The position numbers were made by a program, and so were the translations under genes. A DNA stretch of 42,223 nucleotides from a virus: the IMG/VR virus record IMGVR_UViG_3300005882_000002, positions 1-42,223 of that record. One strand, 5' to 3'. Below, in pieces: positions 16,247 to 39,311 of this stretch. The notes under the pieces were generated by a model. That model was given only the letters and a program-made list of their open reading frames with translations, was not told the origin of the DNA and searched no databases. Within the stretch, counting starts at the first letter, position 1. Each line of letters starts with the position of its first letter.

Positions 16247-17056
16247 ATGGCAAGAAATTTAGTAACAGTATCACAAGTAGTAAATGATTTTATACTCACT
16301 CTTGAAGGAGATGACTATGCGAATAATGCATCGGATACTCTAATTCATAACTACGCTCTAAGAGGTATTAGGGAATTAGGTTTTGATTTACTTCAGAGAG
16401 TTCGTTCATTAAAGCTTTCTGTCGGTGTAAATGACACGGTTGATTTACCGGATGATTTTGTTGAACTTGTAAAGATTGGTATTGTAGGCGGTGATGGCTT
16501 AGTTCATGTCTTTGGCGAGAACAAGAATATTAACTACTCACAGAAGTATAAGACTGATAGCGCTGGTAACAACTTAGATAGTGATGGAGATGGGGTTTTT
16601 GACAGAGAAGATTCTAAGACGGGACTCACTTCGGCGGGTGTATTTGGGAGCGATGATTTTATCGTATTCTCAAATTATATTTATCAAAACAACATAGGAC
16701 AAATCTATGGACTAGGTGGTGGTTTCTATCAAGGGGAGTATCGAGTTAACCTTGATCAGAATAGAATTGAGCTAGCTGTTAATACGGGTACTGGTGAAAT
16801 AGTTATAGAGTATATAGCTGATGAAGCTAGGTCAAGCAATCCAACAGTTCACGTGCAAGCAGAGGAAGCTTTGCGGTCTTATATCTATTACCGATTGATT
16901 GAGAGGAAAAGCAGTGTGCCTATGGCTGAGAAGTCTAGGGCTAGGTCTGAGTTCTACAACGAACGAAGGAAAGCTAATGCAAGGCTTAAGGCTTTCAGTC
17001 AAGAGGAGGCGCTTAAAACTATTCGTAAGAACTTCAAGCAATCACCTAAGTATTAA
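16247..17056 (+). CDS. Head-tail connector (gp4/gp11-like) with calcium-binding-type loop
   Basis: The 269-residue product has the layout of short-tail connector proteins (P22 gp4, T7 gp11). An N-terminal helical segment (DTLIHNYALRGIRELGFDLL) is followed by beta-strands SLKLSVGVNDTVDLPDDFVE and a C-terminal helical region with EEALRSYIYYRLIERK, as in P22 gp4-like tail accessory factors. An inserted loop at D111-S-D113-G-D115-G with D119 and D122 matches the DxDxDGxxDxxD thrombospondin type 3/EF-hand calcium pattern. It would form the ring linking portal to nozzle. The 1-base overlap with the next gene (TAATG) indicates coupled translation. Confidence 0.75.
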   Translation: MARNLVTVSQVVNDFILTLEGDDYANNASDTLIHNYALRGIRELGFDLLQRVRSLKLSVGVNDTVDLPDDFVELVKIGIVGGDGLVHVFGENKNINYSQKYKTDSAGNNLDSDGDGVFDREDSKTGLTSAGVFGSDDFIVFSNYIYQNNIGQIYGLGGGFYQGEYRVNLDQNRIELAVNTGTGEIVIEYIADEARSSNPTVHVQAEEALRSYIYYRLIERKSSVPMAEKSRARSEFYNERRKANARLKAFSQEEALKTIRKNFKQSPKY

Positions 17057-20000
17057 TGGCTATAGATAAACTTATACCACAGTACCTCAACAAGGATGAG
17101 GACGCTAGACTGATAAAGAATACAGAGATGTCTAACGCTGTTAATGTTAGAGTCTCTAATGATGCGGATGGCAATCAAGGTGTTCTAAAGAATGTTAAAG
17201 GCAATACTGCTGTGTCAGCTAGCTTACCTAGAGATTTAATTCCAGATTCTGGTAGCAATAGAATTATTGGTTCTGTGTCTTCTGAGGCTGGTAAGTGTAT
17301 CTATTACTTTCTATACAATACTAATGGGCTTCATGGTATATATCAGTATAGGTACACTACCGATCAATACCATATGGTTTATGAGAATTCTGTTTTAAAC
17401 TTTGGCTCTCAAGATCATATTAAGGCTGACGTTGTAATCAATCAGTTTGGTGAGCACCTATTGTATTTTACTGACAATCGTAATGAGCCAAGAAAGATTA
17501 ACGCCACTAGAGCGCTTCAATTAAATTACTCATCAGTAATAAACAATGGGACTACAGCAGAAAAAGAATTGTTCTTGACGGTATGTAAGCAGCCACCGCA
17601 GACCCCAATTACTTTTGAGTTTATAACTGAGGAAAATAATAAGTCCAATAAGTTAAAGAACAACATCTTCCAATTCGCTTATCAGTATGTGTATGATGAT
17701 GGAGAGGTTACCGCTTTATCTATGTATTCTAAGATAGCAGTGAGCACTACAAATCTTGCTCATAACATTACTGCTCAAACATTTTTTGAGGATGAGAATA
17801 ACGCTATAAGGTTAAGTCTTACTGGGACGACAGGGCCAGTAGATAAAATAAGGGTGTTTGCTAGGAAGAATAATGATCAAGCTTTTTACAGAATAGGGGA
17901 GGTAGATAATCTAAGTTTCGGAGTTGGATCTGTATTTGTTTTTAGAAACGATGGAGTCTACAATTTATTGCCAGATCAAGATGCCTTTAAAGCTTTTGAT
18001 GCTGTTCCAAGAAAGGCTTTTTCTCAAGCAATAAGCAATAACAGATTATTTTACTCTAACTACTTAGAGGGTTTTGATAATATAAAAACAAAGGGGAACA
18101 TCACTTACCCTGTATATCATCCAACACCTTTTAACTTAGAATTTCCTTCAGAAGTGGCACCACATGAGTCCGGCGCATTCACTGAGTTTGTTCAGAATTA
18201 CTATGACTTTATACTTGGAAATAGGATAGGGACTACCGAGCCTAGCACATTAACAGCTAATGATGATCTAGTTTCTTACGCTCAATTCGATGGGTATCCT
18301 GGAATTGAAATTGACCTTAGTGATGTTACGGGGATAGAGGCTATAGAGCCAGGGCAAATAAACTTCCTTGCTAAGTTTGACTTTACTGAAATGGGTATTG
18401 GTAGTTTTGGTGATGATATCAATCACTTTGATTACCCAATAACTTTTACTGATGACAATGGCGACCCGCCGCAATCTCTGATTGATCAAGGTTTACCTAC
18501 AACCTTAAATATGAACTTGCTGACTCCTCAGTTTTCAGGTTTTGCATTTGGGTTTAATACTTCACAAGCAAACACTGTAAACCCCGTCGTGGAAGGTTTT
18601 ACAGCCGAAGGTGATGTTGATGGTGGTGGTGATGATATTCAAGCATCAACAGCAATATCCAATCTTCAACCCGCAGCCCCAATAACATTTTCTACAACAT
18701 TTGATGTTACTAACCAAATATCAGCAACTAACAATAATACTATAGAGCAAGCTTTTGCAAACGAATTAATAACGGCTGTAAATAATACTACTACTACTGA
18801 GTTCTTAGGAGTTCTTCAGACAGACGCTGTTTATAGTAACTCTAGTATATCCGGTGTTAACGGTAATCCAGTACAACCCCATGTATACTCAACAGTTGGT
18901 ATTACTGATGCAGAGGTAAGTCCATCTGGTGATAATTTTCCATTTAGCGGCACAGATCAGCTAGCGGGAAAAATGGATTTTGAAGGGTTTGTAACATTCC
19001 AATTATACGGGGGTACTTATTTTCTTGATGCGGGCGTTCCAAAGGTTAGGTTTAAAATCAGAGTAATTGAAACTGCTTTAAATATTACTAGGCTTCGTTT
19101 CCTAGATCACCCAAGTAACGTATTTAACTTTCAAGATAATGATCAGATAGGCTTTGAGTATCTTCAGCATACTATGTCAGCCCCTATATTGGGGGGCGCT
19201 GGAAACACAACTGGCGCTGGTCTAGAGCTGAAGGATGATATTAGCGACCCAACCAATCAAATTATAACTGCCTATAGAGGTTTCAAACAAACCTCAGCAA
19301 GTATTGAATTTATCAATGATCAGTCAAAAGCATTTGAATCTTTTAAAGCAGGGGCTACACATGATCTTGGTGTTGTTTACTTTGATCACAGGAATAGACC
19401 AAGCGGCGTACAGAAAATTAATTCTGTTGATGTTGATCACTTTGGTCAAGCCCCAAGGCTGGGTAATGAAGGTAAAACTGAGATAGATATTAGGTTAGAG
19501 CACGAGCCTCCATCTTGGGCATCTAAGTGGGCTCCTGTATATTCTAAAAACACTACATACGAAAAGATACTTCAGATCTCAGTGTCAGAAGCAGCTCTCG
19601 CTAAGCAAACAGTTTATGCAGATCCGTTAAGCCCCACTAGTACCAATAGACCTGTATTAGAAAGTCTTGATGGAGGAACTACTGGTTTGATTTACCTTTC
19701 GCTAAGAAGCTTAGAGGGAAAGAACAACTCATACAAAGAATCTAAGGGGGCAAACATATCTTACGAATACAAGGAAGGGGATATGCTGAGGGTCTTAGAG
19801 TGTGTTAATAATGATGGCGTAAAAACAAGACCACTTGCTGAGTTCCCTATAACATCATACAAAAAATATCTTGATGATGAAAACAATCCTATAAGCTTGA
19901 CAAGCGTGAGTGGTGTTGCTGATGAAACTTCTTACAGAAGGACTGGGTTCTTTATGACTATACGTGATGAAGACATTGCTAACTTCACTAGGCAAGATGT

Positions 20001-22329
20001 AGCGGCTGGAGCTGATTTATTTACAAACAACTGCATTGTAGAAATATATAGATCCGCAAAGATAGAGGAGAATCAAAGGTTTTATGAGATTGGTAAGTGT
20101 TATGATATTGTAGAAGTTAGTGGACAGCTAACTCATGGAGGTGATAGGAGCAACAGTGAGAGCCCTACATTTAATATTGTCGTGACTGGCTTTAACGACT
20201 TCACTACCTCTCAGCGTTTATATATAGGAGATAAAGTTTTAATTCCTAGTACGCTTAATGGGTTTGTTATTATAACAAGCATACACCTTAATGAAGATGG
20301 AACCTTTTCGTACACAACAGACGGAAATAGTTTTGGTATAAGTCAGCAAGGCACTAGTATCCTTAACAATACAATTGTAACAACTGTAGGTGATAACTAT
20401 GGAGTATTCCCTGGAGTTGTCACTCTTGATACTGGGGATGTTTATTTAAGGAGAAGGTCTTTGCTAGTTAACACTCTTGACTCGACTACTGGCTTGCCTG
20501 ATGAAACTAAGCCAGATGATCAATTCTATAAAACCTTTTTTATTGAGGATCAATCTGCTAGTGATTTCTTTGAATCAAAAGCCGTTTCAATTGGAAGGCC
20601 ACATATAGAGACTCCAGACCAAGAGGAAATTCGTAGAACATCATCAGTCACGTATAGCGATGTATTTACTTTAGATAGCGCAACATTAAATCTATCTTCA
20701 TTCAATCCGTCTTTATTCCCATTTAAAGACTACAACACGCAGCATGGAGCAATCTGTTATTTGATGGACAGGAATGAGGCGCTTCTTGTGATGCAAGAAA
20801 ACAAAGTCTCAGCCACCCCAATATCAAGAGTGCTTATTGAAAGCGCAGCAGGAGGACAGCTTGTAACATCACAGAATGTTATGGGGACACCTACGTTCTA
20901 TGCGGGTGACTATGGCCCTGGCTTACAGCCAGAAGGAGTAATTGAAAGGTTTGGTAGGGTTTACTTTGTAGATGTGTCTAGAGCTGCGATTTTACAGCTT
21001 GATAGTAACGGTCTTCAGCCTATTAGTGCTAAGCACATGGATTCATACTTCCAAACAAAGCTAGGGCTTATAGATAGTGTGTCTGTTGATAAGAAGGTTC
21101 CTTGTGGGTTTGACCCTGAGAATGACGAGTATATCGTGAGCTTTACTGCAAAAGATACTCAGAGGTTAAGCGTCCCTTCTGATGATGGTGGTGATATTAT
21201 TGATGTAGAAAACCCAAATCTTTCTGGTACTAGGTATTCTGACGTTGTTGTTAATCCTGAGTATAGAAAGAATGGGGCTCCTTGGTGGAATGAAGACGCT
21301 GATCTTTGGCAAATGGATTCTGAAAAATGGAATTTTTCTGGGAATGGAGTGGCGTATATTGATCAACTGCCAGAGAAAGGGGGCGTTATATTAGACTCTA
21401 AGTTTGACAATGCAGTAACTGAATCAACTGTAAATATTAAATTCTCCTTGTATGGTGATGACTTTACTGGACTTGGCTTCATGTCAACTAAAGACAACAC
21501 AATGTCCTTGCCTAGCTCCTTAATAAGGACTTCAAATGCAGGCTCTGTTACACTAACAAAGGGAACTGCTAGTACAACAGTATCAGGGGAGACTGTTGCT
21601 TGGTCAACCACTAAACAACTATGGCTTACGTTCTACTCTTTTGTTCCTGAAAACTACGCACACTTACATGACAGATTCTTTTCATTTGTAGGTGGTCAGA
21701 TTTGGAAGCATAACGTAAACACTTCTCACAATAATTTTTATGGGTTTGCATATAGATCAGAGATAACCATAGTATCCAAAGGCAACCCTAGTATGGTTAA
21801 GGTTTATGATGCAATGTCTTATGAAGGAGATAGCCCTTGGAGCGCAACGGTTTCCAACTCAGACCAAACCACAAGCTTAATGCTGTCGAGTTCGTTTAGT
21901 GAAAAGGAAAATATGTGGTATCGTGTGGTGGGCAAAGATGAAACGAGTGGAACACTAAACACTTCTCATAAGATCGTTCTAGGTGAAGTAACAGCTATTG
22001 ATGGGGATAAGATTACATTTTCCTCTAGAATCAGTAACTTGCCGTTTGGAATTGGAGACACCTTATTTAAGTTAGAATCATCATCTGAAACAAGCTTGAG
22101 CCTTACTGTATCATCTGTATCTGGTAGAAAAGAAATCACGGCAAACGCAGCCGTCACTGGTCTTGTAGTAGGTGATACTGTAATGGCAGTTTCAGACGAT
22201 CAAATAAACGGAGATAATATTAGAGACTATTACGCTCAAGCAAGCATGAATAATAGTAGTGCATCAGCTATTGAACTTTACGCTGTTAACATGTCTTATA
22301 CTCCATCAAACCTACATAACGATAAATAG
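17056..22329 (+). CDS. Large tail nozzle/tubular protein
   Basis: The 1757-residue protein follows the connector gene, in the place of T7 gp12 or the P22 gp10 nozzle. It starts PQYLNKDEDARLIKNTEMSN, a segment typical of this protein type, and continues with propeller-like strands (YFLYNTNGLHGIYQY and LLYFTDNRNEPRKINATRAL). It is soluble, beta-rich over the entire length, without catalytic motif or membrane segment. It is more than twice the length of T7 gp12 (794 residues), so extra beta domains, probably at about 400-760 and 1400-1757, form added tail or receptor-contact parts. Host-recognition segments could lie there, but the sequence does not show which. Confidence 0.75.
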   Translation: MAIDKLIPQYLNKDEDARLIKNTEMSNAVNVRVSNDADGNQGVLKNVKGNTAVSASLPRDLIPDSGSNRIIGSVSSEAGKCIYYFLYNTNGLHGIYQYRYTTDQYHMVYENSVLNFGSQDHIKADVVINQFGEHLLYFTDNRNEPRKINATRALQLNYSSVINNGTTAEKELFLTVCKQPPQTPITFEFITEENNKSNKLKNNIFQFAYQYVYDDGEVTALSMYSKIAVSTTNLAHNITAQTFFEDENNAIRLSLTGTTGPVDKIRVFARKNNDQAFYRIGEVDNLSFGVGSVFVFRNDGVYNLLPDQDAFKAFDAVPRKAFSQAISNNRLFYSNYLEGFDNIKTKGNITYPVYHPTPFNLEFPSEVAPHESGAFTEFVQNYYDFILGNRIGTTEPSTLTANDDLVSYAQFDGYPGIEIDLSDVTGIEAIEPGQINFLAKFDFTEMGIGSFGDDINHFDYPITFTDDNGDPPQSLIDQGLPTTLNMNLLTPQFSGFAFGFNTSQANTVNPVVEGFTAEGDVDGGGDDIQASTAISNLQPAAPITFSTTFDVTNQISATNNNTIEQAFANELITAVNNTTTTEFLGVLQTDAVYSNSSISGVNGNPVQPHVYSTVGITDAEVSPSGDNFPFSGTDQLAGKMDFEGFVTFQLYGGTYFLDAGVPKVRFKIRVIETALNITRLRFLDHPSNVFNFQDNDQIGFEYLQHTMSAPILGGAGNTTGAGLELKDDISDPTNQIITAYRGFKQTSASIEFINDQSKAFESFKAGATHDLGVVYFDHRNRPSGVQKINSVDVDHFGQAPRLGNEGKTEIDIRLEHEPPSWASKWAPVYSKNTTYEKILQISVSEAALAKQTVYADPLSPTSTNRPVLESLDGGTTGLIYLSLRSLEGKNNSYKESKGANISYEYKEGDMLRVLECVNNDGVKTRPLAEFPITSYKKYLDDENNPISLTSVSGVADETSYRRTGFFMTIRDEDIANFTRQDVAAGADLFTNNCIVEIYRSAKIEENQRFYEIGKCYDIVEVSGQLTHGGDRSNSESPTFNIVVTGFNDFTTSQRLYIGDKVLIPSTLNGFVIITSIHLNEDGTFSYTTDGNSFGISQQGTSILNNTIVTTVGDNYGVFPGVVTLDTGDVYLRRRSLLVNTLDSTTGLPDETKPDDQFYKTFFIEDQSASDFFESKAVSIGRPHIETPDQEEIRRTSSVTYSDVFTLDSATLNLSSFNPSLFPFKDYNTQHGAICYLMDRNEALLVMQENKVSATPISRVLIESAAGGQLVTSQNVMGTPTFYAGDYGPGLQPEGVIERFGRVYFVDVSRAAILQLDSNGLQPISAKHMDSYFQTKLGLIDSVSVDKKVPCGFDPENDEYIVSFTAKDTQRLSVPSDDGGDIIDVENPNLSGTRYSDVVVNPEYRKNGAPWWNEDADLWQMDSEKWNFSGNGVAYIDQLPEKGGVILDSKFDNAVTESTVNIKFSLYGDDFTGLGFMSTKDNTMSLPSSLIRTSNAGSVTLTKGTASTTVSGETVAWSTTKQLWLTFYSFVPENYAHLHDRFFSFVGGQIWKHNVNTSHNNFYGFAYRSEITIVSKGNPSMVKVYDAMSYEGDSPWSATVSNSDQTTSLMLSSSFSEKENMWYRVVGKDETSGTLNTSHKIVLGEVTAIDGDKITFSSRISNLPFGIGDTLFKLESSSETSLSLTVSSVSGRKEITANAAVTGLVVGDTVMAVSDDQINGDNIRDYYAQASMNNSSASAIELYAVNMSYTPSNLHNDK

Positions 22330-22331
22330 AT

Positions 22332-23297
22332 ATGGCTTATCACTTAAATTTTCCTCTTAATTTTATAGTTGATGAAGAGGGTAATGTAATCCCAGAGGAT
22401 GGCGGCGACGACAGCGGTAGCACTGGTTTTTCTGCAGCAGGAATGTCCATGATGGGTGGCGGTATTGGTATGATGGCTAGTGGTGTTGGTTCACTTACTG
22501 GCGGTATCATGGATATTCAAGCGGGAAAGGATTTGCGTGACGCAGGAATAGCAGAACAAAAGACTGCTAATATTGAGCTTGCAAAACTAAAGGCTTCACA
22601 GCCATCGCTAGACACCCCATCTGAATACTACGATTTAGTAAAGGGCGCTTACGATCAAAGACTCATGCAACAGCGTGTTGAAGATATTAATAGATCATTT
22701 GCCACTACCGCTGCTGCCGCTGGTCAGTATGGAGCTAGGGGTCTTGGTGCTGTTCTTCAAGCCTCATCTCAAGCTGAGCAAGCTCAACGTCAAGAAGTGT
22801 TAACACAACAGCGTTTACAAACCCAAGCACTTGGTCAGTTAGCTAAAGCAAGAGAAAGGGAGACTAGACTTAAGGAAATTAGGAGCACTAGAGATATTGA
22901 GTATGGGTTTGATGCTAAACGTGCTGCTGAGGCGAAAGAGTTTATGGGTGAGCAGCAAAGAAGAGAAGGTATCACAAGTACTATTACGGGTGCTAGTGAG
23001 ATCGTTGGTGGTGCTGCTATGACTTCGGTAGGTGCAGGATTTACTGGATTCGCAAGTGGGGGCAAGATTGCTAAGCGTGGGGTAAGGGTTACGAAAACGC
23101 CAGGCAAGTTTTCTCACAAAGAAAACCCTCTTCATGTCGTTGATAAAGGCGGTGATAAAGTAGCCGAGCTTACCGGAGGCGAGTATGTATTTAACCCAGA
23201 TCAATCCAAGAAGCTGTTGAAGATGGCTAAGAGTGGAGACACTCCTTTACACAAGTTTGTTTTAAACCTATTAATGAAATTCGAAAATAATGGCTAA
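22332..23297 (+). CDS. Internal virion / ejection protein 1
   Basis: The 321-residue product has a glycine-, methionine- and alanine-rich hydrophobic stretch at about 35-62 (AAGMSMMGGGIGMMASGVGS), a long helical coiled region rich in Q, A, R and E (about 65-210), and a second glycine-rich segment (about 215-245). It ends with KVAELTGGEYVFNPDQSKKL, a motif common near the end of phage ejection or tape proteins. It matches the small ejection protein (T7 gp14-like) in place and composition; such proteins insert into the host outer membrane. The next gene overlaps its end by eight bases. Confidence 0.65.
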   Translation: MAYHLNFPLNFIVDEEGNVIPEDGGDDSGSTGFSAAGMSMMGGGIGMMASGVGSLTGGIMDIQAGKDLRDAGIAEQKTANIELAKLKASQPSLDTPSEYYDLVKGAYDQRLMQQRVEDINRSFATTAAAAGQYGARGLGAVLQASSQAEQAQRQEVLTQQRLQTQALGQLAKARERETRLKEIRSTRDIEYGFDAKRAAEAKEFMGEQQRREGITSTITGASEIVGGAAMTSVGAGFTGFASGGKIAKRGVRVTKTPGKFSHKENPLHVVDKGGDKVAELTGGEYVFNPDQSKKLLKMAKSGDTPLHKFVLNLLMKFENNG

Positions 23298-25176
23298 CGG
23301 ATTCAAAACGTCTTTTGTAGGAAAACCTACTAGCTTTTCTCAACTAGGTGGTGCTGCGGGTCAAAGGATCGGCTCCTCTATTGAGAAGGTGTTCAACGCT
23401 GCCGCAGTTCAAAAGCAAAATAAGCTAAAGGAGGCTGAGGCTAAGTACGGCTTTGATAAGGCTGAGATGGAGATTATCCCTAGCGGTATTGAACCACGAT
23501 TTAGGAGTGGGCTTCAGAGCTACTTAGATGATTATGTGAGCTTAGCTGCTAGCTCTAAGCAGAATCCGACTTCAGGAAATATTAATGCTTATAAGTTAGC
23601 TAGGCGAAACTACCTTGAGTATGAACAAGCAGCAACTACTTTGAGTAGTTTCAATAGGACTACTGCTGTTCAAATTCAGAAGGGTCAAGTTAAAGACATG
23701 ATTGGTAGTGTTTCTGAAAACATGAATCTATACAACAAGTATAGGAATGGTGATGGAATTAAGCAGTATTACAAGGATGGAACTCTCTATGTTGTTGAGG
23801 AGGGTGTTGAAAAACCTTGGAACCAATCAACAGCCTTTTCTGCAAACTCAGTATTCGTACCGCCTATTGAAGCTAAAGAAGCAAAGTACTCTGTAGACAA
23901 AACTCAAGCAGATCTCGTATCTAAAGTATTTAACTCTAGAAAGGGAATTTTTCAAATTAGGGATAGTCAAGGGTTTGCTACTGGACAGATTGATGAGATT
24001 GAGGCTGCGAAAATTGGTGTTGAATTTCTAAACACTAGAGCAGAGACTGACGCTGAGCAAAACACAGCTATCTCAATAAACGCTTACAATCAAAATCAAA
24101 AGGCTGGTGCGGGTGTAACTGAAGAGGATATTGTTAAATCTGCTGTGATTTATGATCCAAGCATGGACAATAAGACTTTTGAGAGACAAGATTCTCCTAC
24201 TGGAAAGATTATAAATGTTAATGTTGCTACAATCATAGGGTTAGATGATGAAGGCAAGGCAGTGTTTAGCACTACTAATTCTGATATAATAAGAGAGTTC
24301 GGTGGCACTGACACTTTTGAAGCGGCACGAATACTGAGGTGGAGAGATGCTAAAGCTGATTACTACGAAGGTAGCTTAAACACATCTATTAGTCAGATTG
24401 GTGTAGTAGATGAGTCGGGGCAAAAGTTGAGATACAACATATCACTAGAGAAAGCCCGAGCTAAAGCAGGAGTTGAAGCGGGTAAGGAACAGAAGAAGCT
24501 AATAGATGATCTTACAAAAAAATACAAAGGCGCTCCTGGTCTAATACAAATAGATGGAGGTTATGAGGCTCCGTCTAATCAGAAGGTAATTACATCTTCA
24601 GGAGAAGAGTCTACTGTTGTAGGTGTTGACTTCAACAAACAAGGGAATGTATTTCAGTATAAAATACAGACGGAAGTACCACAACTTGAAGCAGATGGAA
24701 GCCCAAAGATGGGTTTTGATTCTAGTGTTAATGCGATGGTTGAACTGACAACAACTGAGCAATCGGTTGTTAAGTTTGATGATCCAGAGTTTAGCCTAAT
24801 CGATAACTTTATGAGGAATGAAGAGGCTGACTTAATTGCATTAGGGGAGCAAAAGGTTTTAGTAGCTGATAATATGTCGGAGTATGCTTTAAAGAATGTA
24901 GGTATCCCAACTAAAGTACTTATAGGTGGAGCTGAGGAATCAGAAGAAGAGAAATCAGAAGAAGAGGTGGTAGTTAAAGATTCGGAAAAAGACTTAACAT
25001 TGAAGTCTTCTGCAAGCGTTCCAAAAGAGCATATAGATTGGATTATGGGTTCTACTCCACAGCAAGCTAAAGTCTACAGGAATGCTCTGAAAGACCCTGA
25101 GAAAAAAGTTTCTATAGAAAACGGTCAGTTGATTATACGTAAAAAATCAAATGTAGGCGCTGGCGCAAGCTTTTAA
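23290..25176 (+). CDS. Internal virion / ejection protein 2
   Basis: This is the second of three consecutive tail-side genes, as T7 gp15 follows gp14. The 628 residues are soluble and mainly helical in the first third (FRSGLQSYLDDYVSLAASSK). A mixed middle follows, with E/K-rich low-complexity SEEEKSEEEVVV at about 549-560 and a C-terminal helical SVPKEHIDWIMGSTPQQAKV. No enzyme motif is seen. Its start overlaps the upstream gene by eight bases and the giant gene follows after four bases, so the three are translated as one unit. Assignment as an internal core protein is by synteny. Confidence 0.6.
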   Translation: MANGFKTSFVGKPTSFSQLGGAAGQRIGSSIEKVFNAAAVQKQNKLKEAEAKYGFDKAEMEIIPSGIEPRFRSGLQSYLDDYVSLAASSKQNPTSGNINAYKLARRNYLEYEQAATTLSSFNRTTAVQIQKGQVKDMIGSVSENMNLYNKYRNGDGIKQYYKDGTLYVVEEGVEKPWNQSTAFSANSVFVPPIEAKEAKYSVDKTQADLVSKVFNSRKGIFQIRDSQGFATGQIDEIEAAKIGVEFLNTRAETDAEQNTAISINAYNQNQKAGAGVTEEDIVKSAVIYDPSMDNKTFERQDSPTGKIINVNVATIIGLDDEGKAVFSTTNSDIIREFGGTDTFEAARILRWRDAKADYYEGSLNTSISQIGVVDESGQKLRYNISLEKARAKAGVEAGKEQKKLIDDLTKKYKGAPGLIQIDGGYEAPSNQKVITSSGEESTVVGVDFNKQGNVFQYKIQTEVPQLEADGSPKMGFDSSVNAMVELTTTEQSVVKFDDPEFSLIDNFMRNEEADLIALGEQKVLVADNMSEYALKNVGIPTKVLIGGAEESEEEKSEEEVVVKDSEKDLTLKSSASVPKEHIDWIMGSTPQQAKVYRNALKDPEKKVSIENGQLIIRKKSNVGAGASF

Positions 25177-25180
25177 AATT

Positions 25181-28100
25181 ATGGATGAAAAGTTACAGCA
25201 GTTACTGCTTGATGCAAAGATAGCTGGGGCTTCCCCAGAGGAGCTTCAATCCATTGTCGATGAGTACAACGGAGGGGTTGATAGTGAAGTTCCTGATTTC
25301 TCTATGCTCACTGAAGGCTTAGACAACTTGTTGTTAGACGCTAAGATAAACGGCGCTGACAATGAGGAGCTTAACTTGATAACAGAAAGATACAAGAAGA
25401 CTGAGGCTGACCTTGAAATGGCTAGCCAACAGCAGTACCTAGAAACTTTAGATCCGGAGATAGCGCAAGCTGTTGATTCATTTGTCTTCAACCGTGAGGA
25501 GAAGATGGAGAACTACTTCAGAGAAAACTTTGACCTCAACAAGTATTACAGCAAATCGCAGTCTGGATTAGATTATGTAGCTCAGTTAGATGACAATCAA
25601 AAGAATGAGCTTAAGAATGAAGTTATTGATAACATCATAACTACTGATGGGTATGGTGATGCAGCTTTAGCACAGCTTCTTAAAGGAACTGATGAAGAAC
25701 TTTCTAAGAATATTCAGAGTGCAAAATTAAGTGCTAACGCTATAGCTACTGGTGAGCTAGTCGGTTCTGTTGGGCCAGCGGGTATGGCGTTTATCGGAGA
25801 GGAAGGCAGAGCAAAAGCAGATAGCGACATCTATGACGACTTAACTAAAAGATATATTAGTGAGGCTAACGGAAGGTTTCAAGGTGCTATTATGCGACAA
25901 GACTCAGAGGAGTTCCTTGCTACGCTTCCAGAGGAAAAAAGAAATGATCCCGCTTATTTACAGTCTATAGAAAATACTCTTAATAAAGAGTATGACATTA
26001 TTCTTGATCTAACAGGTGATGGGTATTCCTATAAGAAAGAGGGTAGGCTTCATGTTGTAGCTGACACTTGGGATTCAATGATGAAGAGTTTCTCTGAAAC
26101 TAGGACAGCTATAGGAACAATCTCAAGAGATGTTTTAGGTTACAGTGAAGAAGATGTAGCTAAATACAGAAAGGAACGTGGGGAGGTTATAGACGAAAGA
26201 ATGAAGGATGTAAGAACTCCATTAAAAACTATTTCTGAAAAGTTTGAGAGTGGAGACATCCTTGGGGGTATTAGTGATGGTATTGTTATGACGGGGGAGT
26301 CTGCTCCTATGATGGCTGCGGCTATAGGTACTGGACTTATTACACGTAATGCCAGAGCTGTAAGCGCAACGACTAAAGCTTTTCCTAAGCTAGCTAGAAC
26401 TTCGGCGGGATTTAAAAAAGCGCTAGCTGAAACAAAAAAGAAAAGAGGGCTGATAGCAAACATAAACACGTTAGGCGTAACCTCTGCCTACGGATCAGCA
26501 ACAACCTACAATAGGGTTCGTGACGAAAAGTGGTATAATGAATTAAGCGGTTGGGAGCAGGCTGGGTATATCGGAGTTATGGGTATAGCTGAAGGAGCCC
26601 CTGCTGCTGTTGGCGCTAGCTTGTTTAACAGCATGACAACTAAAACTCTTCAAGCTCTTGCTAGCGGAGAGGGCATAGGATCTATAGCTAAAGGCATGCT
26701 GATTAGGACTGGATTTGCAGGTTCTTCTGAAGCATTAACAGAAGGTTCTACTGCTGCTGTTCAGTACACTGCTGATATTGCTGCTAAAAGAGCAGGGGGT
26801 CTTATTGATCCTAAAACCGATAAGCTGATTGAGTTCAATGATGAAGACTTCTGGAGGCAAACAAAAGACGGGGCTTATGCTGGTCTTGTTATGGGTGCTG
26901 GTCTTGCTGGGCTAGGTGCGGGAGCAGGGCTTTCGATAAAAGCTGTTGGGTTGGCTGCGGCTTCTATGCCTGTTCTGCAAAGCCAAATGGTTATCAAGCA
27001 ACTTAGAAAAGATTTCGATGCAGAGAAAAGCAGAGAGGGTAGGGCTACCATAGGTCAAAGAATTATAAAGGCTGTTAAGGATGCAAGTAATATTGAGAGA
27101 GACAGAGAAGCGTTCTACACGCAAATATCTGAGGAGAATCAAGGAGACTTTGATCAGCTTGTAGGCTTACAAAACAACATCACTAGGCTAGCTATTGAGC
27201 ACACTAAGTCTAAAGGTAAAAGGAAGGCTGAGATTCGAGAAGAGATGGGTGGACTTCTTGAGAAGCGTAGTTCTATTGAGTCTAAGTATGATGCTGCTTT
27301 TGAGATTGACATTAAGTCAGAAAGGCGTAGGATTTTTACAGCAGCTACTAAGCTAGATAAAAGGTTTGGTGGTTATGGTGAAGTGTTTGGTGATCAAGAT
27401 TCTGTTACCGTTACCGAAGGAAATGCAGATGAAGTACTAGATAACATATTAGATTCTAATATCTCAGATGCTGACTTAGAGGTTAAGATGGGGCTCGACC
27501 CTGTTACGGTTAGCACTGTAGAGGCAGTTAGAGATGGACTAGTCAATGCTGTTAAGGTTGTTAAGGCTTTATCAAAGATGGTTGACCCTAAGACGGGTAA
27601 GAAGCCTAAGCTAGTTATTCATAAGACTGCTGATTCGTTTATTAAAGGAACTGGTGAAGCTCCATCTAGAGGGGTTTGGAAAGGTAAGGGCGAGATACAC
27701 TTGCTTGCGCCTGCTATTAAAAACAACACTGCATACCACGAAGCCTATCACGATTTTGTTTTAGAAAATCTTGGGGTTAGTAAAGTAGCTAAGCTAGCGG
27801 CAGCGTTAGCAAAAGGAGTTAAGGGAGATGCTAGAGCTAGGTATGCGAACTTCTTGAGAGGCTATGTTGGTGATCGAGATGTAAACATCGATGAGAAGAA
27901 CTTAGCTAAAACTATTGAGCAGAATCCAGACTTGTTTGGTGAGGAGTTCTTGGTTGAGCTGCTTGGTGATCTTAGTTCGGAGAACGTATCTATAGAGTTT
28001 AAGAAGGGAGTCATAGACAGCTTTATGAGCTTCATAGCTCCGGCACTAGGTAAGATCGGAGTCAACATAGACGTAGACAAGATCAATAATAGAGCTAAGC

Positions 28101-31100
28101 TACAAGATGTAGTGAACGCTATTGAGAAGGCTACAGGACAGCTTCGTGAAGGAAAGGCTGTAGAGGCTGTTGAAGATATTGATGCAGCGGTTGAGGTTAC
28201 TGAGGATGTTGATGTAGATGAGACTACTACTAAGCAAGCAGATGATGACGCTGAAAGCAAGGCTCAAGTAATAGAGGAGCTTTCTCAAAGACCTGGTCTT
28301 CAATCTCTCTTAGATGCTACTGGATTAACAGAAGCAGATATAGAACAAAGGAAATCTGAACTTAAACTACCAGAGTCTCAAAGACAAAAGAGAGTACCAA
28401 CAATTGTAAATGGACTTCAAGAATATACTGATGGAGAAATTACTCAGCAAGAGTATCTTGAAACTGTTCGCAAAGATTCCCCAATTAGACTATTTGATTC
28501 TGTTCCAGAGATACCGAGTGTATTAGACATGGCTGGTGCGCTTAAAAAGAACTTGCTAGACTCTGGTATTATTGGCGTAAACAAGCAGATACCTGAATCA
28601 TACTACATTGGTTTAAGGTTAGACATTAGTGCATATGATAAATACGACACTTGGGTAGTGTCTACACATCAAGGTAAAAAATCTGAAGCAAGATCACCTT
28701 ACCTTGGAGGAAAGATTATAGGGTACGCTCAAACAGCTTTGATTACAAACGCTACGTTTGACTCTACACCAAGGGCTGCTTACAAAATTGCAATGGGACT
28801 TGATAAAACTACTATTGCTAGAATGTTTGGGGATAACGTGAACCACGATTCAGCAGAGCTTAAGGCTAGGGCTGAAGAAATTATGGCTGGTTCTGAATAC
28901 AATGTAGATCAGAAAGAAATTGGTGTACAAGAAGGGTGGGTTCAAGTGGGTATGAATCCGTTTAGGCATAGTTGGTTCTACGATAAGCGTGATGGATTAC
29001 CTGTTTCTACTGCATCTGAAATCATTCAGATTGGAGCTTTAGTTTTAGCGAAGAACACTGAGAAGATTAGTGTCGCAGATCCACGTTTTGAATTCAATAT
29101 TGGGGATAAGGAGAATGTTAAGAACATTAAGTTCCAAAAAATAACTGAGGAAATTGTTGATGGCGTAGATAATCAAGAGGCTATTATTGATACTCCTATC
29201 TCTATTAATTCTAGAGTGCTTGGGGATGCGCCAAAGAAACAGCAGATAGATGTTTCTGATACATACATGGCTAATGAAAAGGTTGTAGATATAACCAACC
29301 TTGTTCGTGACTTTGAGAAGGATAATGGTCGATCTCCAAATGTTTGGATTTGGATGGGGGATCAACTTAAAAGAGGTGAGTATTTTAACCCTGAGACTGG
29401 TGTTAAAAATTCATTGCTTGGTGGTGTAGGGTTTTCTGTTGCTGAGGACATAGATACCGAGAATGCTGTATGGGCTTCTGGATTATCTATGAATACTCTT
29501 TCTACTAGAGTTGAGCAAGCGGATTTTATTTTCATTATGGCTGGATCACCTAATAGTGGTCACAACTTTTCTAAGGGATCTATAAACACCTTATTTGCTG
29601 AGATTGAAAATGGAATGAAGAACAACATCGGCAAAGAGTTTGGCGGTGTTGAAATTACTGATGGTTCTCTCGATGAGTTTATTAAGATTACTAATGAGCT
29701 TTTAAAGGAAGAGAAAAAGTCTAAGGGTGAAATGGCTCCCGTTAGCAACACGAAGAAGTGGTCTACGGTGCTTAAGGGTTTAAATGAAAACGGGAAAGAT
29801 CTAGCTGATTATCCAATAAGAAAAAGTGTTGTGGAGTTAATGCTCCATGAGGGTGCGGGTAAAAAGCATGGTCTAGAATTCCATAAGTTCCTTCACGATG
29901 ACCTTAAGGTTCCTAAGAAAGATGTGTTTAACGATCTGATTAGGGATGAGTATCTGTCAAAGCTAGACGCAAAGTATGGTGATATTGTTTCTATACTAAA
30001 GCCTACTAGCGTAAAGGAGAATGCTAACGACCATGACACTTATGCTAACACTATCATTGGTGAGTTTGTAGGCATACCTAGTGGTATATATAACGTAGCA
30101 GACATTGTCCCAAACAATGTTCTTCAAAGCCTAGCAAAAGAAGGGGCAGATATAGAGTCTCTTTCGAAGTCAGCTAAGATTAAAACTGCTGCTGGAGATG
30201 TTGGTGGCATTTACACTGGTGAAAACTTAGAGTCAATAATTTCTGAAATCAAATCCGTTAGTGAAGATCCTTCATCTGTAAGGAGTGTTGCAAAAGCTCA
30301 AGACAGCCTTATCAGCTTAGTCGCTGACTTCATTGAACAAGGAGTAGCAGATCCTTCTGTTCAAAGAGATGGGAGAAGAAAGAATCCTGTTGTGTCTATT
30401 GACAAAAGCGGTCAAGATACTTTGTTCCCTCACCTTTCTAGGAAGAATAAAAAAGAGATTATACAGATCCTCATTGACAACGGCTTGTCTAAGGAGTCAG
30501 CAGAGATTACCTATAAGCAAGCTGTGCTTTTCAAGAAGGGTCGTGTAGCGGGTAAGAAGCAAATTCAAAAGACTGTAGTTAATGTTCTTAAAAAGAACTT
30601 AAAACTAAAGACTACTGAAGCTAAGGACTTACAGAAAGAGCTTAACGAAATAAGAGAAAAGGCTAAGACTGTAGCTGAGTTTAGGAAGAAAGCTAGGGCG
30701 CTTATTAACGAGAGATCAAAGGAATTTAAGGTTAAGTTTACTGCGGCCCAGATTACAAAGGTGTTCGAGATTGCGATGAGTGCTAATCAAGTTAGCGCTA
30801 AAAGGTTAGCTAAGGAAGGTGATGCTTTCATGGATACCTTTATAGAAAGGATGTCTAAGATCTTTGATGCTCAAGACAAGAAGCAAGCGATGCAAGATTA
30901 TATCGATAGTGTTGCAAAGGCTAAGCAGATCATGGCTAAGATAAAGAGAAAGCTTAAGGCAACCAAGAAGGGTAAGGCTTTGAAGGCAAAGACAGCTTAC
31001 CTTTTACCTGCTACAAAGCTAGCTAACGTAGATGCTAATCTTATATCAGTAGAAAACATTGGGGAGTTTTTAAAAGCCTTAAATAAAACTCTAGAGACTG

Positions 31101-34100
31101 TCGAAAATATAACAGTCAGAAAAAACAAGAAGACTGGTGAGATTGAGGTAACGACAAAGAACAGACTTACGGCTTCTCAAGTCCAAGCTTTTGCAGATAC
31201 TTACTCAGAGATTGAAGCTTTCGGCAGGGATCTAAAGTTTACTAGAGCAGCAGAAAGAGCTGTTGAGAGAGCAGCTAAGAACGGTATCGAGACTACCGTT
31301 GAAGAGGAGAAGGCTAAGCTTGTTGAGAAGTATGAAAGAGGTTTGCTATCTGCTTCACTTAAAAGAATACAAGATCGTATTGATGAGTGGAACGAAGCTA
31401 ACCCAGACAATGAGAGAAGCATTGATAATCCTATAGACCTTGAGACTACTATCGATGAGCTGTCAGAAGAGCAGTCTCAGTTAGCGGAGATTAAAAAAGA
31501 AACCATCATCAAAGATGGTCTACTTCCGGTCATTCAAAAGAATCTAGATAGGCTGTTGCAAGACCCTGACGTAAGATCAATCTTGGGTATAAGTGATATA
31601 GATTCGTATGACGCTGACGCTCTCACTAAAAGAATGATGGGCATTGACCAAAGGGTTCTCATTCAGTTAGAGTTCAAGTTAGACTCTATGGTTCTGAATG
31701 GGGATGCGTATGGTATTGAGTATGTACGTGTGTACTTTGATGCTCTTGATGCTAGGAATAGATTAGCAGAGTTTAAGGATAACAACCCAAGGGTAAAAGC
31801 TAGAAGACCAACCTTGCTAGGTATTTCAGATCAGTTGATTACTAGCTTAGAGAATTATACAAGGCAGATGTTCCCTCAAGTAAACAGAAAGAAGTTGACT
31901 GAGGTTAGGGGAGGCTTAATGCTTGACAAGCTGTACAATAGGTTTGAAAATGCTGAGCAACTTATAGCTGAGTATGATTCGTTATTGGTTGATGAGATTA
32001 ATTCTATAAGTGAAGAGGAGGGCAATAGTGTTAAGACTTCATTTGATCAAGTATTAATGACCATCTTCTCAATGGCTAGACAAAAGCCAGAGACTAAGCT
32101 AGAAGCACAATGGTATAATGATCTTAGGGATGCACTAGACAACACTATAGAATACAACGAAGCTCAAAAGAGGGTGTTTGATAAAGACACTATTGAGCAA
32201 ATGAAGGAGGCACGTGATTTCTTGTTCTCTGGTACTGCTGATCTTAATGAGCTTATAGACAAAGTAACCTCTGAAAGGGAGAGTGACATTGTTCGAATGG
32301 TTGATTTTATAGCGTCTATGCACACTAGAAACACAGCTTCATTTGAAGGATATGTAAATAGGTTCTTAGGTAAGGAGTTAAAGCATGAGGATAACTACAC
32401 TCACTTTGATGTAAGGAAGCAAACTGGCAATGCAGCTCTTGATGAAGTGCTAGACACTAGATCTCTTCTTATGGAGAGCTTGTCTAATTCTAGCATAGAC
32501 AACATGAAGAAGATAGCCGGAGCTTCTATAGAAAGAAATCCACAAGCTATAGGTGAAGGAACTGTGTTAGGGTTAGACTTTTATGTGTCTAACATGGGTG
32601 CTATCCAAGAAAATATAATCCTAGAAAAGACAGCATCTACAGTAAGCGCAATAGTAAAGACTTATAATTCAGATGAGTTTAACTCGCTGATTGATGATAG
32701 TGAAACTAAGTCTAGTCTTAAGGCTAAGCTGTCTCAGCTTATATCAAAGGATAGGACTAACACATTCTTTGCTCTCAAGCCAGAAATTAAAGTGTTTGGT
32801 AGGTCGTTCCCTAATCCAATTATGGCCCTTCGTGCTGCCTCAGATGTCCTTGCTTTTGGTGGGCTTATCAATCAAACTATAGTACAGAGTACAGTTTTGT
32901 TAAATGTTATAGGTTATTCCTTTAATCCTGGTCAAGCAATAGCGCATCAAACAAAGATGTATAAGAACCTTTGGATGAGGTCTTTAAAGAGGGATAAGCT
33001 TTACAAGAAAGACTACGTTGTTCTTAGTGATGCTGAGAATGCACTACTTCAGCAGTCTTCTGTCTTCAGAAGGGATTACCAAGAGGGGCTTCTTAATGCT
33101 GCTAGTGGTCAGATGGAGTACGACAAAGGAAAGTTCAGAGGGGCTGTAGATAAAATGAGGGATTTCTCTTTAAGAAATCTAGTCAAGACTGACAAGCTAG
33201 CTGCTGTTGCGGGGTTCTTTACTTACTACGGGGACTACCTTATTAATGAGGGGGTTGTTGATAGCTATGACAAGATAGATTACAATGAGCAAGCGAGGCT
33301 TGTAAAAGAGGGAGACAAGACAGCCTTGGCTGCCCTTGATTACGCTAATGCAACAGTGAGTGCTACACAAGGGCCATCTACAGGAAGAGAGCAAACTGAG
33401 TTCTTCCAAAAAGATGACTCTGTGGTTCAGTTGCTTAGAGAGATATTCGTTAGGTATCAAAGGTTTGCATACAACAAGAAGGCTAGTATGAATGCTGCCG
33501 GAATGAAGCTTAGGCTTGGTGAAGATGCCTCTACTAAAGCAGAGGGAGCTAAAGAAATGGTTTCAATAATAACTGAAGCTGCGGTGTTCCATGCTGCAAA
33601 GATTGCTTTACTGCCTACTCTTTATCAAATAGGTTATTGGTTATTGTTTGATGATGATGAAGAGGCTGAGGACTTAAAGAAAAAGAACAGCAAGGCTTAT
33701 GATTATGCTGGCAGAATATTGCAAGACATTAATCCTGTTCCAGATATTCCTGTGCTTAATGACGCAGCAATACACAGCTTTAATAAGTACGTATTATTCC
33801 CCGCAACAACAAACCTAACAGAAGACTTTAAGGTTCTTGAATCAGACACTTATGATGATGGGTTTAAGAGGTGGGTTGAGTCTGGTAGAGGTATACCTGA
33901 ATACACGTTTAGTCCTTCAGTGGACAAGCCTAATTTTATTCTTAATAATCTAGGTGTTTATGGGCAGACTATACAGAAAACTATAGAGCCATTAAGCAAC
34001 TTAAAGACATTTAATGCTGATGGATATATAACTTCATCTACAGGAAAGAAGTACTACGTAAGGCCAGAGGATAAAGACAAGATGAAGATGCACTTAATAT

Positions 34101-34669
34101 TCACTGGCATCCAACAGCTTGCGGCTTTTGGTGGTATTGGAGTTAAGGAAATTTCTAGTATGACAAAGAAGCTAGATGATCAAGCTAAACGTAGAGCCCT
34201 TAAGAGTGACTTCGAACTATTGTCTTATGAGAAAACACTTTACTTTGATTTATTAAAAAATCAAAAGGATGGTCTTGATTTGATTGAAGACTACGGGGTT
34301 GACATGGCTCCTGAGATATTGCGTAGTAAGCTTGAAGAGCTAGATCCAAATGATCCTACGGCTCTTGCTAAAGCTTATAGACAAATTAAATCTGGTGGAA
34401 AGATCGCTGGGTTTGAGTCTTACTTAAAGAAAAAATTTCCTGATCACTATGGTAAGTTCATAAGAGATGTCAAAAACATCTCCAAGGCTGACTCAAAAAG
34501 TGTAGAGGTGTTAAGGCGAAACGCTATAGATGATATTACAAGTAACTATTCTGACGAGGATGCTGAAGTATTTCAATTAATGCTTGATAACTATCTTAGC
34601 GTTATGAGTCCAGGTAAGTTGGAGACTTATAAAAACATCCTATACAGAAACCCAATTGAGGAAGATTAA
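25181..34669 (+). CDS. Giant polyvalent ejection protein with HEAYH metallopeptidase motif
   Basis: The 3162-residue protein is the largest here, in the place of T7 gp16. Visible parts in order: two N-terminal helical repeats ending LDAKIAGASPEEL and LDAKINGADNEEL (about 5-75); a hydrophobic glycine/alanine-rich segment (about 563-600) suited to membrane entry; HEAYH (H853, E854, H857) with a downstream EEFLVELLGDL (about 921-931), the layout of a zinc metallopeptidase; and a large polyvalent protein-associated domain at about 1100-1310, including MNPFRHSWFYDKRDGLPVST. Long charged helices follow (about 1800-2100), and near 2800 a hydrophobic ALLPTLYQIGYWLL. It is presumably ejected with the DNA. 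No lytic transglycosylase motif was found by eye. Confidence 0.8.
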   Translation: MDEKLQQLLLDAKIAGASPEELQSIVDEYNGGVDSEVPDFSMLTEGLDNLLLDAKINGADNEELNLITERYKKTEADLEMASQQQYLETLDPEIAQAVDSFVFNREEKMENYFRENFDLNKYYSKSQSGLDYVAQLDDNQKNELKNEVIDNIITTDGYGDAALAQLLKGTDEELSKNIQSAKLSANAIATGELVGSVGPAGMAFIGEEGRAKADSDIYDDLTKRYISEANGRFQGAIMRQDSEEFLATLPEEKRNDPAYLQSIENTLNKEYDIILDLTGDGYSYKKEGRLHVVADTWDSMMKSFSETRTAIGTISRDVLGYSEEDVAKYRKERGEVIDERMKDVRTPLKTISEKFESGDILGGISDGIVMTGESAPMMAAAIGTGLITRNARAVSATTKAFPKLARTSAGFKKALAETKKKRGLIANINTLGVTSAYGSATTYNRVRDEKWYNELSGWEQAGYIGVMGIAEGAPAAVGASLFNSMTTKTLQALASGEGIGSIAKGMLIRTGFAGSSEALTEGSTAAVQYTADIAAKRAGGLIDPKTDKLIEFNDEDFWRQTKDGAYAGLVMGAGLAGLGAGAGLSIKAVGLAAASMPVLQSQMVIKQLRKDFDAEKSREGRATIGQRIIKAVKDASNIERDREAFYTQISEENQGDFDQLVGLQNNITRLAIEHTKSKGKRKAEIREEMGGLLEKRSSIESKYDAAFEIDIKSERRRIFTAATKLDKRFGGYGEVFGDQDSVTVTEGNADEVLDNILDSNISDADLEVKMGLDPVTVSTVEAVRDGLVNAVKVVKALSKMVDPKTGKKPKLVIHKTADSFIKGTGEAPSRGVWKGKGEIHLLAPAIKNNTAYHEAYHDFVLENLGVSKVAKLAAALAKGVKGDARARYANFLRGYVGDRDVNIDEKNLAKTIEQNPDLFGEEFLVELLGDLSSENVSIEFKKGVIDSFMSFIAPALGKIGVNIDVDKINNRAKLQDVVNAIEKATGQLREGKAVEAVEDIDAAVEVTEDVDVDETTTKQADDDAESKAQVIEELSQRPGLQSLLDATGLTEADIEQRKSELKLPESQRQKRVPTIVNGLQEYTDGEITQQEYLETVRKDSPIRLFDSVPEIPSVLDMAGALKKNLLDSGIIGVNKQIPESYYIGLRLDISAYDKYDTWVVSTHQGKKSEARSPYLGGKIIGYAQTALITNATFDSTPRAAYKIAMGLDKTTIARMFGDNVNHDSAELKARAEEIMAGSEYNVDQKEIGVQEGWVQVGMNPFRHSWFYDKRDGLPVSTASEIIQIGALVLAKNTEKISVADPRFEFNIGDKENVKNIKFQKITEEIVDGVDNQEAIIDTPISINSRVLGDAPKKQQIDVSDTYMANEKVVDITNLVRDFEKDNGRSPNVWIWMGDQLKRGEYFNPETGVKNSLLGGVGFSVAEDIDTENAVWASGLSMNTLSTRVEQADFIFIMAGSPNSGHNFSKGSINTLFAEIENGMKNNIGKEFGGVEITDGSLDEFIKITNELLKEEKKSKGEMAPVSNTKKWSTVLKGLNENGKDLADYPIRKSVVELMLHEGAGKKHGLEFHKFLHDDLKVPKKDVFNDLIRDEYLSKLDAKYGDIVSILKPTSVKENANDHDTYANTIIGEFVGIPSGIYNVADIVPNNVLQSLAKEGADIESLSKSAKIKTAAGDVGGIYTGENLESIISEIKSVSEDPSSVRSVAKAQDSLISLVADFIEQGVADPSVQRDGRRKNPVVSIDKSGQDTLFPHLSRKNKKEIIQILIDNGLSKESAEITYKQAVLFKKGRVAGKKQIQKTVVNVLKKNLKLKTTEAKDLQKELNEIREKAKTVAEFRKKARALINERSKEFKVKFTAAQITKVFEIAMSANQVSAKRLAKEGDAFMDTFIERMSKIFDAQDKKQAMQDYIDSVAKAKQIMAKIKRKLKATKKGKALKAKTAYLLPATKLANVDANLISVENIGEFLKALNKTLETVENITVRKNKKTGEIEVTTKNRLTASQVQAFADTYSEIEAFGRDLKFTRAAERAVERAAKNGIETTVEEEKAKLVEKYERGLLSASLKRIQDRIDEWNEANPDNERSIDNPIDLETTIDELSEEQSQLAEIKKETIIKDGLLPVIQKNLDRLLQDPDVRSILGISDIDSYDADALTKRMMGIDQRVLIQLEFKLDSMVLNGDAYGIEYVRVYFDALDARNRLAEFKDNNPRVKARRPTLLGISDQLITSLENYTRQMFPQVNRKKLTEVRGGLMLDKLYNRFENAEQLIAEYDSLLVDEINSISEEEGNSVKTSFDQVLMTIFSMARQKPETKLEAQWYNDLRDALDNTIEYNEAQKRVFDKDTIEQMKEARDFLFSGTADLNELIDKVTSERESDIVRMVDFIASMHTRNTASFEGYVNRFLGKELKHEDNYTHFDVRKQTGNAALDEVLDTRSLLMESLSNSSIDNMKKIAGASIERNPQAIGEGTVLGLDFYVSNMGAIQENIILEKTASTVSAIVKTYNSDEFNSLIDDSETKSSLKAKLSQLISKDRTNTFFALKPEIKVFGRSFPNPIMALRAASDVLAFGGLINQTIVQSTVLLNVIGYSFNPGQAIAHQTKMYKNLWMRSLKRDKLYKKDYVVLSDAENALLQQSSVFRRDYQEGLLNAASGQMEYDKGKFRGAVDKMRDFSLRNLVKTDKLAAVAGFFTYYGDYLINEGVVDSYDKIDYNEQARLVKEGDKTALAALDYANATVSATQGPSTGREQTEFFQKDDSVVQLLREIFVRYQRFAYNKKASMNAAGMKLRLGEDASTKAEGAKEMVSIITEAAVFHAAKIALLPTLYQIGYWLLFDDDEEAEDLKKKNSKAYDYAGRILQDINPVPDIPVLNDAAIHSFNKYVLFPATTNLTEDFKVLESDTYDDGFKRWVESGRGIPEYTFSPSVDKPNFILNNLGVYGQTIQKTIEPLSNLKTFNADGYITSSTGKKYYVRPEDKDKMKMHLIFTGIQQLAAFGGIGVKEISSMTKKLDDQAKRRALKSDFELLSYEKTLYFDLLKNQKDGLDLIEDYGVDMAPEILRSKLEELDPNDPTALAKAYRQIKSGGKIAGFESYLKKKFPDHYGKFIRDVKNISKADSKSVEVLRRNAIDDITSNYSDEDAEVFQLMLDNYLSVMSPGKLETYKNILYRNPIEED

Positions 34670-34679
34670 TAATAACATT

Positions 34680-35150
34680 ATGAAACTAGAAGTATTAAGA
34701 ATAAGCTCGCAGTCTGATTCTACAAATGGAGTTCTGTATAAAGTAAATACAGATGGCAGTAGAGATTTCTTGGCTTACACGCTAGAGGACGAAGAGAGAG
34801 ATGAGAAAGTAATGCATGAGACTAGGATTCCTTCGGGTACTTATAGGATTACTCTAAGAACAGTTGGGGGATTTAACGCTAAGTATGCAAAGAGATTCAA
34901 GGACATTCACAAGGGTATGCTATGGGTGCGTGACGTACCTAATTTCCAGTATATACTTATTCATTGCGGTAATACTGACGAGCATACTAGTGGTTGCTTA
35001 TTGCTTGGTAAAACTCAGACGAGCAATAAAGATACGAAGGATGGGTTCATAGGTAAGTCTACTCAGGCTTACTTTGATGTGTACCCACCAATAGCTGAGG
35101 CTCTTGAAAATGGAGAGGATGTATCTATCACATATATAGATCACGCATAA
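34680..35150 (+). CDS. DUF5675-like protein, L,D-transpeptidase-type site, possible lysis enzyme
   Basis: The ATG at 34680 gives 156 residues; an in-frame TTG at 34656 would overlap the giant gene and is rejected. The segments TLEDEERDEKVMHETRIPSG, YRITLRT and ILIHCGNTDEHTSGCLLLGK match the conserved blocks of DUF5675, found in many phages of Bacteroidota. The HxGN...TSGC pattern resembles the His/Cys active site of YkuD L,D-transpeptidases, suggesting action on peptidoglycan cross-links. Neighbouring holin-like genes favour a lysis or cell-wall role. It has no signal peptide, so it would need a holin or act inside the virion. Confidence 0.65.
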   Translation: MKLEVLRISSQSDSTNGVLYKVNTDGSRDFLAYTLEDEERDEKVMHETRIPSGTYRITLRTVGGFNAKYAKRFKDIHKGMLWVRDVPNFQYILIHCGNTDEHTSGCLLLGKTQTSNKDTKDGFIGKSTQAYFDVYPPIAEALENGEDVSITYIDHA

Positions 35151-38951: not shown

Positions 38952-39311
38952 ATGTACGAGTACAAGATAACATTAGATAGGGTTGTTGATGGTGATACTA
39001 TAGATGCTCACATTGATCTAGGCTTCGATATTACAACCAAGAAAAGAATTAGATTTGCTGGTATCAATACGCCTGAATGCAGGACTAGAGATATAGAAGA
39101 GAAGCAGAAAGGCTTAGCTGCTAAGGCAAGGCTGATAGAGATATTAGAGAGCGCAAAAGAGATACATCTAGACTCTCATGGAGTAGGTAAGTTCGGGAGA
39201 GTTTTAGGACAGCTTCATGTAGATAGTGAGCATTCAATTAGTATGGTTGATGTGAATCAACTATTGATAGACGAGGGTCATGCTGTGGAATATCACGGTG
39301 GTAAAAGATAA
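38952..39311 (+). CDS. Staphylococcal nuclease-like endonuclease
   Basis: The 119-residue protein matches the thermonuclease (SNase) fold: VVDGDTIDAHI (D13, D15), RFAGINTPEC (R34 and E42 at the catalytic arginine/glutamate positions), KFGRVLGQL (R83 as second catalytic arginine) and the terminal LLIDEGHAVEYHG. The usual aspartate before TPE is asparagine (N39), so the calcium site may be altered. SNases cut DNA and RNA using calcium. No signal peptide is present, so it would act in the cytoplasm or after lysis, for example in host DNA degradation. It begins two bases after the barrel gene stop. Confidence 0.85.
   Translation: MYEYKITLDRVVDGDTIDAHIDLGFDITTKKRIRFAGINTPECRTRDIEEKQKGLAAKARLIEILESAKEIHLDSHGVGKFGRVLGQLHVDSEHSISMVDVNQLLIDEGHAVEYHGGKR

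Follow-up and report, generated by a model that had tools for sequence, protein, structure and literature searches.

A giant ejection-type protein with a conserved zincin-like centre and a probably exchangeable cassette in a Bacteroidota-type podovirus

The window analysed here, a stretch of 42,223 nucleotides that makes up one entire IMG/VR virus record (IMGVR_UViG_3300005882_000002), contains a gene whose product raises the question of which of its parts is carrier, which is cargo, and what its metallopeptidase-like motif is for. A sequence-only reading had placed this giant protein in the gp16 position of an ejection set and had proposed that it delivers a protease, and perhaps other effectors, into the cell at the start of infection. 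The frame is open throughout its 3,162 codons (9,489 nt) and takes up 22.5% of the window, more than a fifth, as had been stated. It is the last gene of a trio (gA, gB and the giant) directly after the muzzle gene, in agreement with the proposed gp16 position. The genes concerned are:

16247..17056, plus strand: virion structural protein (phrog_13977), ring-like by position
17056..22329, plus strand: muzzle protein (PF25731, PF25729)
22332..23297, plus strand: gA, 321 aa, first of the post-muzzle trio; 57% identity in the closest relative
23290..25176, plus strand: gB, 628 aa, middle of the trio; 23% identity in the closest relative, a low value as for the giant
25181..34669, plus strand: giant, candidate ejection-type polyvalent protein, 3162 aa

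The window represents a podovirus of the Bacteroidota type whose muzzle resembles that of crassviruses. The upstream muzzle gene product (1,757 aa) scores 40.3 bits with PF25731 and 41.7 bits with PF25729 (cut-off 27), and the muzzle protein expected in a crassvirus-like virion set is present. The terminase large subunit is 39% identical to that of the Flavobacterium elemo phages and 47% to that of the Manatee Spring phage ctfjg026. Within the muzzle protein, the C-terminal three quarters (18257-22329, plus strand) vary much more than the N-terminal part and are perhaps the host-contact surface. The gene following the giant (34656-35150, plus strand) encodes a member of DUF5675 (84 bits) whose H...SGC pattern looks, by eye, like that of L,D-transpeptidases; its identity in the closest relative is 93%. 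Next comes a gene for a 921-aa protein (35150-37915, plus strand) that starts with a signal peptide-like sequence and carries the C-terminal sorting domain of type IX secretion (PF18962, 38.5 bits). This protein is apparently exported by the T9SS of the host, and the sorting domain points to a Bacteroidota host. A 345-aa gene (37912-38949, plus strand) matches nothing in G010, the closest relative, but is 65-66% identical in G008 and G004, a mosaic presence. A small staphylococcal-nuclease-like protein (PF00565, 30.3 bits) is encoded at 38952-39311 (plus strand).

Searches with the giant itself gave little. No Pfam, PHROG or NCBIfam family passed its cut-off; in particular, Pfam yielded no lytic transglycosylase of the T7 gp16 type, and the earlier remark that such a motif is missing holds. 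Sequence comparison with solved structures gave no match, and the C-terminal profile found nothing in bacterial and archaeal genomes. In named phages, tblastn of the giant matched only one internal module (M1, see below), and tblastn of a second module (M2) and of gB matched nothing. A virion RNA polymerase that starts early transcription, as in N4 or crassviruses, was considered, since size, gene position and the combination of an HExxH motif with a helical C-terminus parallel the N4 enzyme (PMC12633501). We rejected this identity, to which we assign next to no probability, because the D-x-D-G-D/A motif is absent from the window giant and five relatives and no RNA polymerase family matched the window giant.

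Evidence for presence in the virion comes from the first part of the protein:

25181..26980, plus strand: N-terminal domain, aa 1-600, with Gly/Ala-rich hydrophobic stretches

Profile comparison linked this domain of the window family to elemoF gp18 (probability 88.6), and elemoF gp18 in turn to gp101 of Cellulophaga phage phi40:1 (91.2); the direct comparison of the N-terminal domain with gp101 gave no match. The gp101 protein, which is syntenic to the giant and has no zincin, is annotated as structural from MS/MS. In crassviruses, cargo proteins are packed in the capsid and tail (PMC10172136). Judging from gene position and from this two-step profile link of moderate probability, the giant is very probably an ejected virion protein.

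The metallopeptidase-like centre lies behind the N-terminal domain:

27248..28192, plus strand: predicted zincin-like metallopeptidase domain, aa 690-1004
27737..27751, plus strand: HEAYH, aa 853-857
27944..27958, plus strand: E922 and E926, invariant, candidate third zinc ligand

HEAYH, found at residues 853-857 as the sequence-only reading had it, is the sole HExxH of the protein, with 0.015 expected from composition. In an alignment of the zincin region of the window and 18 other sequences (22-44% identical to the window), H853, E854, H857, E922 and E926 are among only nine invariant positions in 426 columns. The two glutamates lie in a predicted helix, and the downstream glutamate helix postulated before is thereby borne out. 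A C-terminal profile search collected relatives at 49 loci. HEAYH, HEAFH, HEGYH or HEGFH (HE[AG][YF]H) is present in all 37 relatives with the motif region, several of which are near-copies of one another; L084, whose contig ends before the motif, is outside this count. The giant of the elemo phages has HEIFH and belongs to the window zincin profile. Lack of conservation among homologues had been named beforehand as what would refute the idea, and the retention of the motif throughout supports, at the sequence level, a metallopeptidase centre. Some giants harbour three HExxH motifs, L074 at aa 808, 1337 and 1743 and L079 at aa 1083, 1431 and 2592, including extra ones inside the cassette described below.

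The model of the zincin region, with pLDDT values mostly about 65-79 (medium confidence), shows a helix, three strands, the helix of the HEXXH motif and, further on, a helix bearing the glutamates. This is the minimal zincin pattern, and the order of its elements matches that described for the zincins of polyvalent proteins (PMC5512222). Both sequence and predicted secondary structure thus give what is expected of a polyvalent protein, a zincin-like metallopeptidase with HEXXH and a downstream glutamate helix. A genuine zincin fold in the giant is, on the strength of the model and the invariant residues, highly probable. We infer that it belongs to a clade missed by the Pfam, PHROG and NCBIfam models tested. 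Such an enzyme could be a peptidoglycan endopeptidase which opens the wall for ejection in place of the missing transglycosylase, since we found no wall-lytic domain in the giant, whereas T7-type gp16 has one (PMC8954989). However, no similarity to known wall-cutting metallopeptidases was found and the DUF5675 gene is another candidate for wall chemistry, and we regard this function as improbable.

The body of the protein downstream of the centre was modelled in part:

30293..34525, plus strand: C-terminal backbone, aa 1705-3115, conserved; the modelled part (to aa 2529) is alpha-helical

In the model, its first 825 residues are alpha-helical, and confidence is good along most of this stretch. 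In a viral predicted-structure library the model matches the second halves of several long viral proteins (best E 7.7e-14), most of them unnamed; some proteins in weaker rows are annotated with LPD and MuF domains. Foldseek searches of the zincin and C-terminal models against the PDB revealed no significant match, and neither a solved nor a predicted structure gave a trustworthy confirmation of the zincin fold. VIA-align weakly listed anthrax lethal factor (Z 2.8, 152 residues, rmsd 6.2) as well as generic helical repeats, and both were set aside as evidence.

Between the zincin and this backbone lies the most variable part of the protein:

28193..30292, plus strand: putative exchangeable cassette, aa 1005-1704
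28298..29155, plus strand: module M1, aa 1040-1325
29168..30265, plus strand: module M2, aa 1330-1695

The distance from the end of the zincin to the start of the C-terminal body ranges from 41 to 1,375 aa across the relatives. Three giants whose C-terminal 1,440 aa are 94-96% identical have three different cassettes, namely a ParB-like domain (weak profile match), LPD23 together with a second motif, HEIQH, and a mere linker of 41 aa. In the cassettes of other relatives, DUF7178 and LPD23 score above the Pfam cut-off, and ART-PolyVal narrowly misses it. A polyvalent domain had been suggested at about residues 1100-1310 of the window giant; it is real in the form of M1, a mobile module with the wider borders of about 1040-1325. 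M1 is 48-64% identical in giants with a C-terminal backbone only 28-36% identical to that of the window. It is also found in gp54 of Roseobacter phage CRP-9 and in a protein of a Manatee Spring podophage; in both cases the gene directly follows that of the portal. An unrelated podophage protein (L043) combines M1 with the ADP-ribosyltransferase family ART-PolyVal and with DUF7178, each scoring above its cut-off. The Pfam relative of M1, PF25735, exceeds the cut-off in L099 alone. The search of bacterial and archaeal genomes detected M1 in two metagenome bins, L098 and L099, in ORFs of 3,388 and 2,351 aa, respectively; these contigs, binned as Pseudomonadales and Rhodospirillaceae, are probably phage contigs.

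M2 is 53% identical in four giants which lack M1 and have a 29% identical backbone. The two modules occur in different lineages and are united in the window giant. By eye M2 is like the second variable segment of other giants; profile comparison gave no match, and the model of M2 is very poor. In pairwise comparison, L053 and L092 are 92-95% identical in the backbone and 72% in M1, while for L053 and L062 the values are 56-75% and 76%. (The mixed fragment alignment A4 and alignment A6 misaligned modules and were discarded.) The N-terminal, zincin, M1, M2 and C-terminal segments move independently, and the several unrelated domains typical of polyvalent proteins are therefore present. The recognised polyvalent families LPD23, DUF7178 and ART-PolyVal were seen in the relatives, and the window giant has only M1. 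Taken together, the cassette is probably exchangeable cargo. This exchangeability was absent from the sequence-only reading; M1 and M2 are candidate effectors, and better ones than the zincin.

According to the earlier proposal, it is the zincin that would act as injected effector, cutting host proteins such as those of defence systems. The catalytic set is indeed complete and invariant, and an effector role is discussed as one option for the zincins of polyvalent proteins, for which processing of their own polypeptide is the default proposal (PMC5512222). However, no part of the protein is more constant than the zincin, whereas the adjacent cassette varies, and effectors in an arms race are expected to vary. 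Because of this contrast a zincin aimed at host defences is less favoured, and we consider it unlikely. Somewhat less likely still is a structural or regulatory zincin like domain C1 of the N4 virion RNA polymerase, in a giant which is mainly a channel or core protein with cassettes as passengers of little effect. It is true that the HExxH domain C1 and the helical C2 of N4 resemble the zincin and the helical C-terminus found here (PMC12633501). But the presumed ligands and the general base are all invariant across very divergent sequences, and one would not expect mere passengers to belong time and again to known families of polyvalent effectors.

Exchange is also seen at the level of whole genes. 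Compared with G010, the window reaches mostly 62-88% identity in its terminase, portal, capsid-type, ring-like and muzzle N-terminal genes, and 90-94% in several others, in contrast to 23% for gB and 29-30% for the giant. A tree of the muzzle N-terminal part pairs the window with the phage of G010 (support 100), whereas the giant trees reject this pair with p-AU values of 7e-92 (C-terminal) and 6e-8 (zincin), the exact size of which deserves little weight because in the giant tree the window sits on a long branch. Judging from the sequences, the giant and its upstream partner gB have been replaced as a pair between phages which are otherwise 62-94% identical.

A second case was found among 68 elemo records. 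The giants of elemoD_13-5B and elemoF_6-3D, cultured Flavobacterium phages with one shared host strain, differ by replacement of nt 421-2476 by nt 421-2665, a segment of 2.1-2.2 kb with abrupt borders, and are 98.3-98.5% identical in the rest. In the other genes compared, identity is 100% (muzzle, ring-like and gB-like) and 95.6% (gA-like). This swap is N-terminal in the giant, away from the position of the window's cassette, and exchange across the wider group thus goes beyond one site. The low identity of gB and the giant to the closest relative could alternatively reflect very fast divergence in place, with which the long branch of the window would agree. Yet the tree topologies conflict with strong rejection, the borders in the elemoD/elemoF pair are abrupt, and M1 and M2 stem from different backbone lineages; we therefore hold divergence in place to be quite unlikely.

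Our best explanation, which as a whole we regard as reasonably probable, is that the giant is a polyvalent ejection protein composed of a constant carrier, a zincin-like centre and an exchangeable cassette. According to this explanation, gA, gB and the giant would be packed in the head or tail, and the giant would leave through the short tail after gA and gB, its N-terminal domain helping to cross the envelope. More speculatively, the zincin may cut the chain or otherwise free the cassette from the carrier. During the first minutes of infection, the cassette modules would then target defence or host metabolism. We propose that different hosts demand different cargo and that for this reason relatives swap the cassette and, at times, gB and the giant together. 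That the zincin processes its own chain is a tentative suggestion by analogy: P1 DdrB is processed, while the HExxH-bearing virion RNA polymerase of N4 is packaged unprocessed (PMC5512222), and self-processing of the giant is thus not a given. An action of the cargo against defences is possible but doubtful. With similar reserve, it is tempting to speculate that in Bacteroidota phages giants of this kind join a fixed carrier and a zincin that cuts its own chain to a site where early host-directed modules are exchanged, which would make them the phage equivalent of polymorphic toxins.

Injection is predicted for polyvalent proteins, and direct tests are few. Since the elemoD/elemoF pair differs by one replaced segment of the giant, it becomes directly testable which cargo such giants deliver and whether it decides success on the host. 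Cargo exchange is visible among near-identical phages, and M1 and M2 are worth assaying as uncharacterised modules.

Among known systems, elemovirus gp18, the ctfjg026 giant and Pervagoviridae gp101 share the gene position after a muzzle homologue, and elemo gp18 also shares the zincin; the C-terminal body has no detectable homology to them. The ctfjg026 giant (L012:744-12320, minus strand; 3,859 aa) has two HEFGH motifs (aa 1615 and 2500), both outside the window zincin profile, which are perhaps other zincin types at the equivalent gene position. With T7 gp14/gp15/gp16 the giant shares its place as third and largest member of a trio after the tail genes, and domain swapping is known for the T7 type (PMC8954989). 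It differs from gp16 in that no transglycosylase was found and in being about 2.4 times as long as the largest gp16-like homologue listed (1337 aa; PMC8954989). The N4 virion RNA polymerase (Schitoviridae), about 3,500 aa long, is likewise a giant that is ejected; in the intact virion protein its HExxH domain (C1) precedes a large, helical C-terminal part (C2, about 110 kDa; PMC12633501). In contrast, no RNA polymerase domain was found in the window giant, and no sequence relation was detected. With the polyvalent proteins (Iyer et al. 2017, PMC5512222) the giant shares the very large chain, HEXXH-Glu zincin hub, gene among the late virion genes and mixture of unrelated modules, here LPD23, ART-PolyVal, DUF7178 and ParB-like domains in relatives of the window giant. 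The class is therefore already known, and what is new is the unannotated backbone, which like the zincin escaped all Pfam, PHROG and NCBIfam models tested, and the visible exchange of a cassette between a constant zincin and a constant C-terminus among near-identical relatives.
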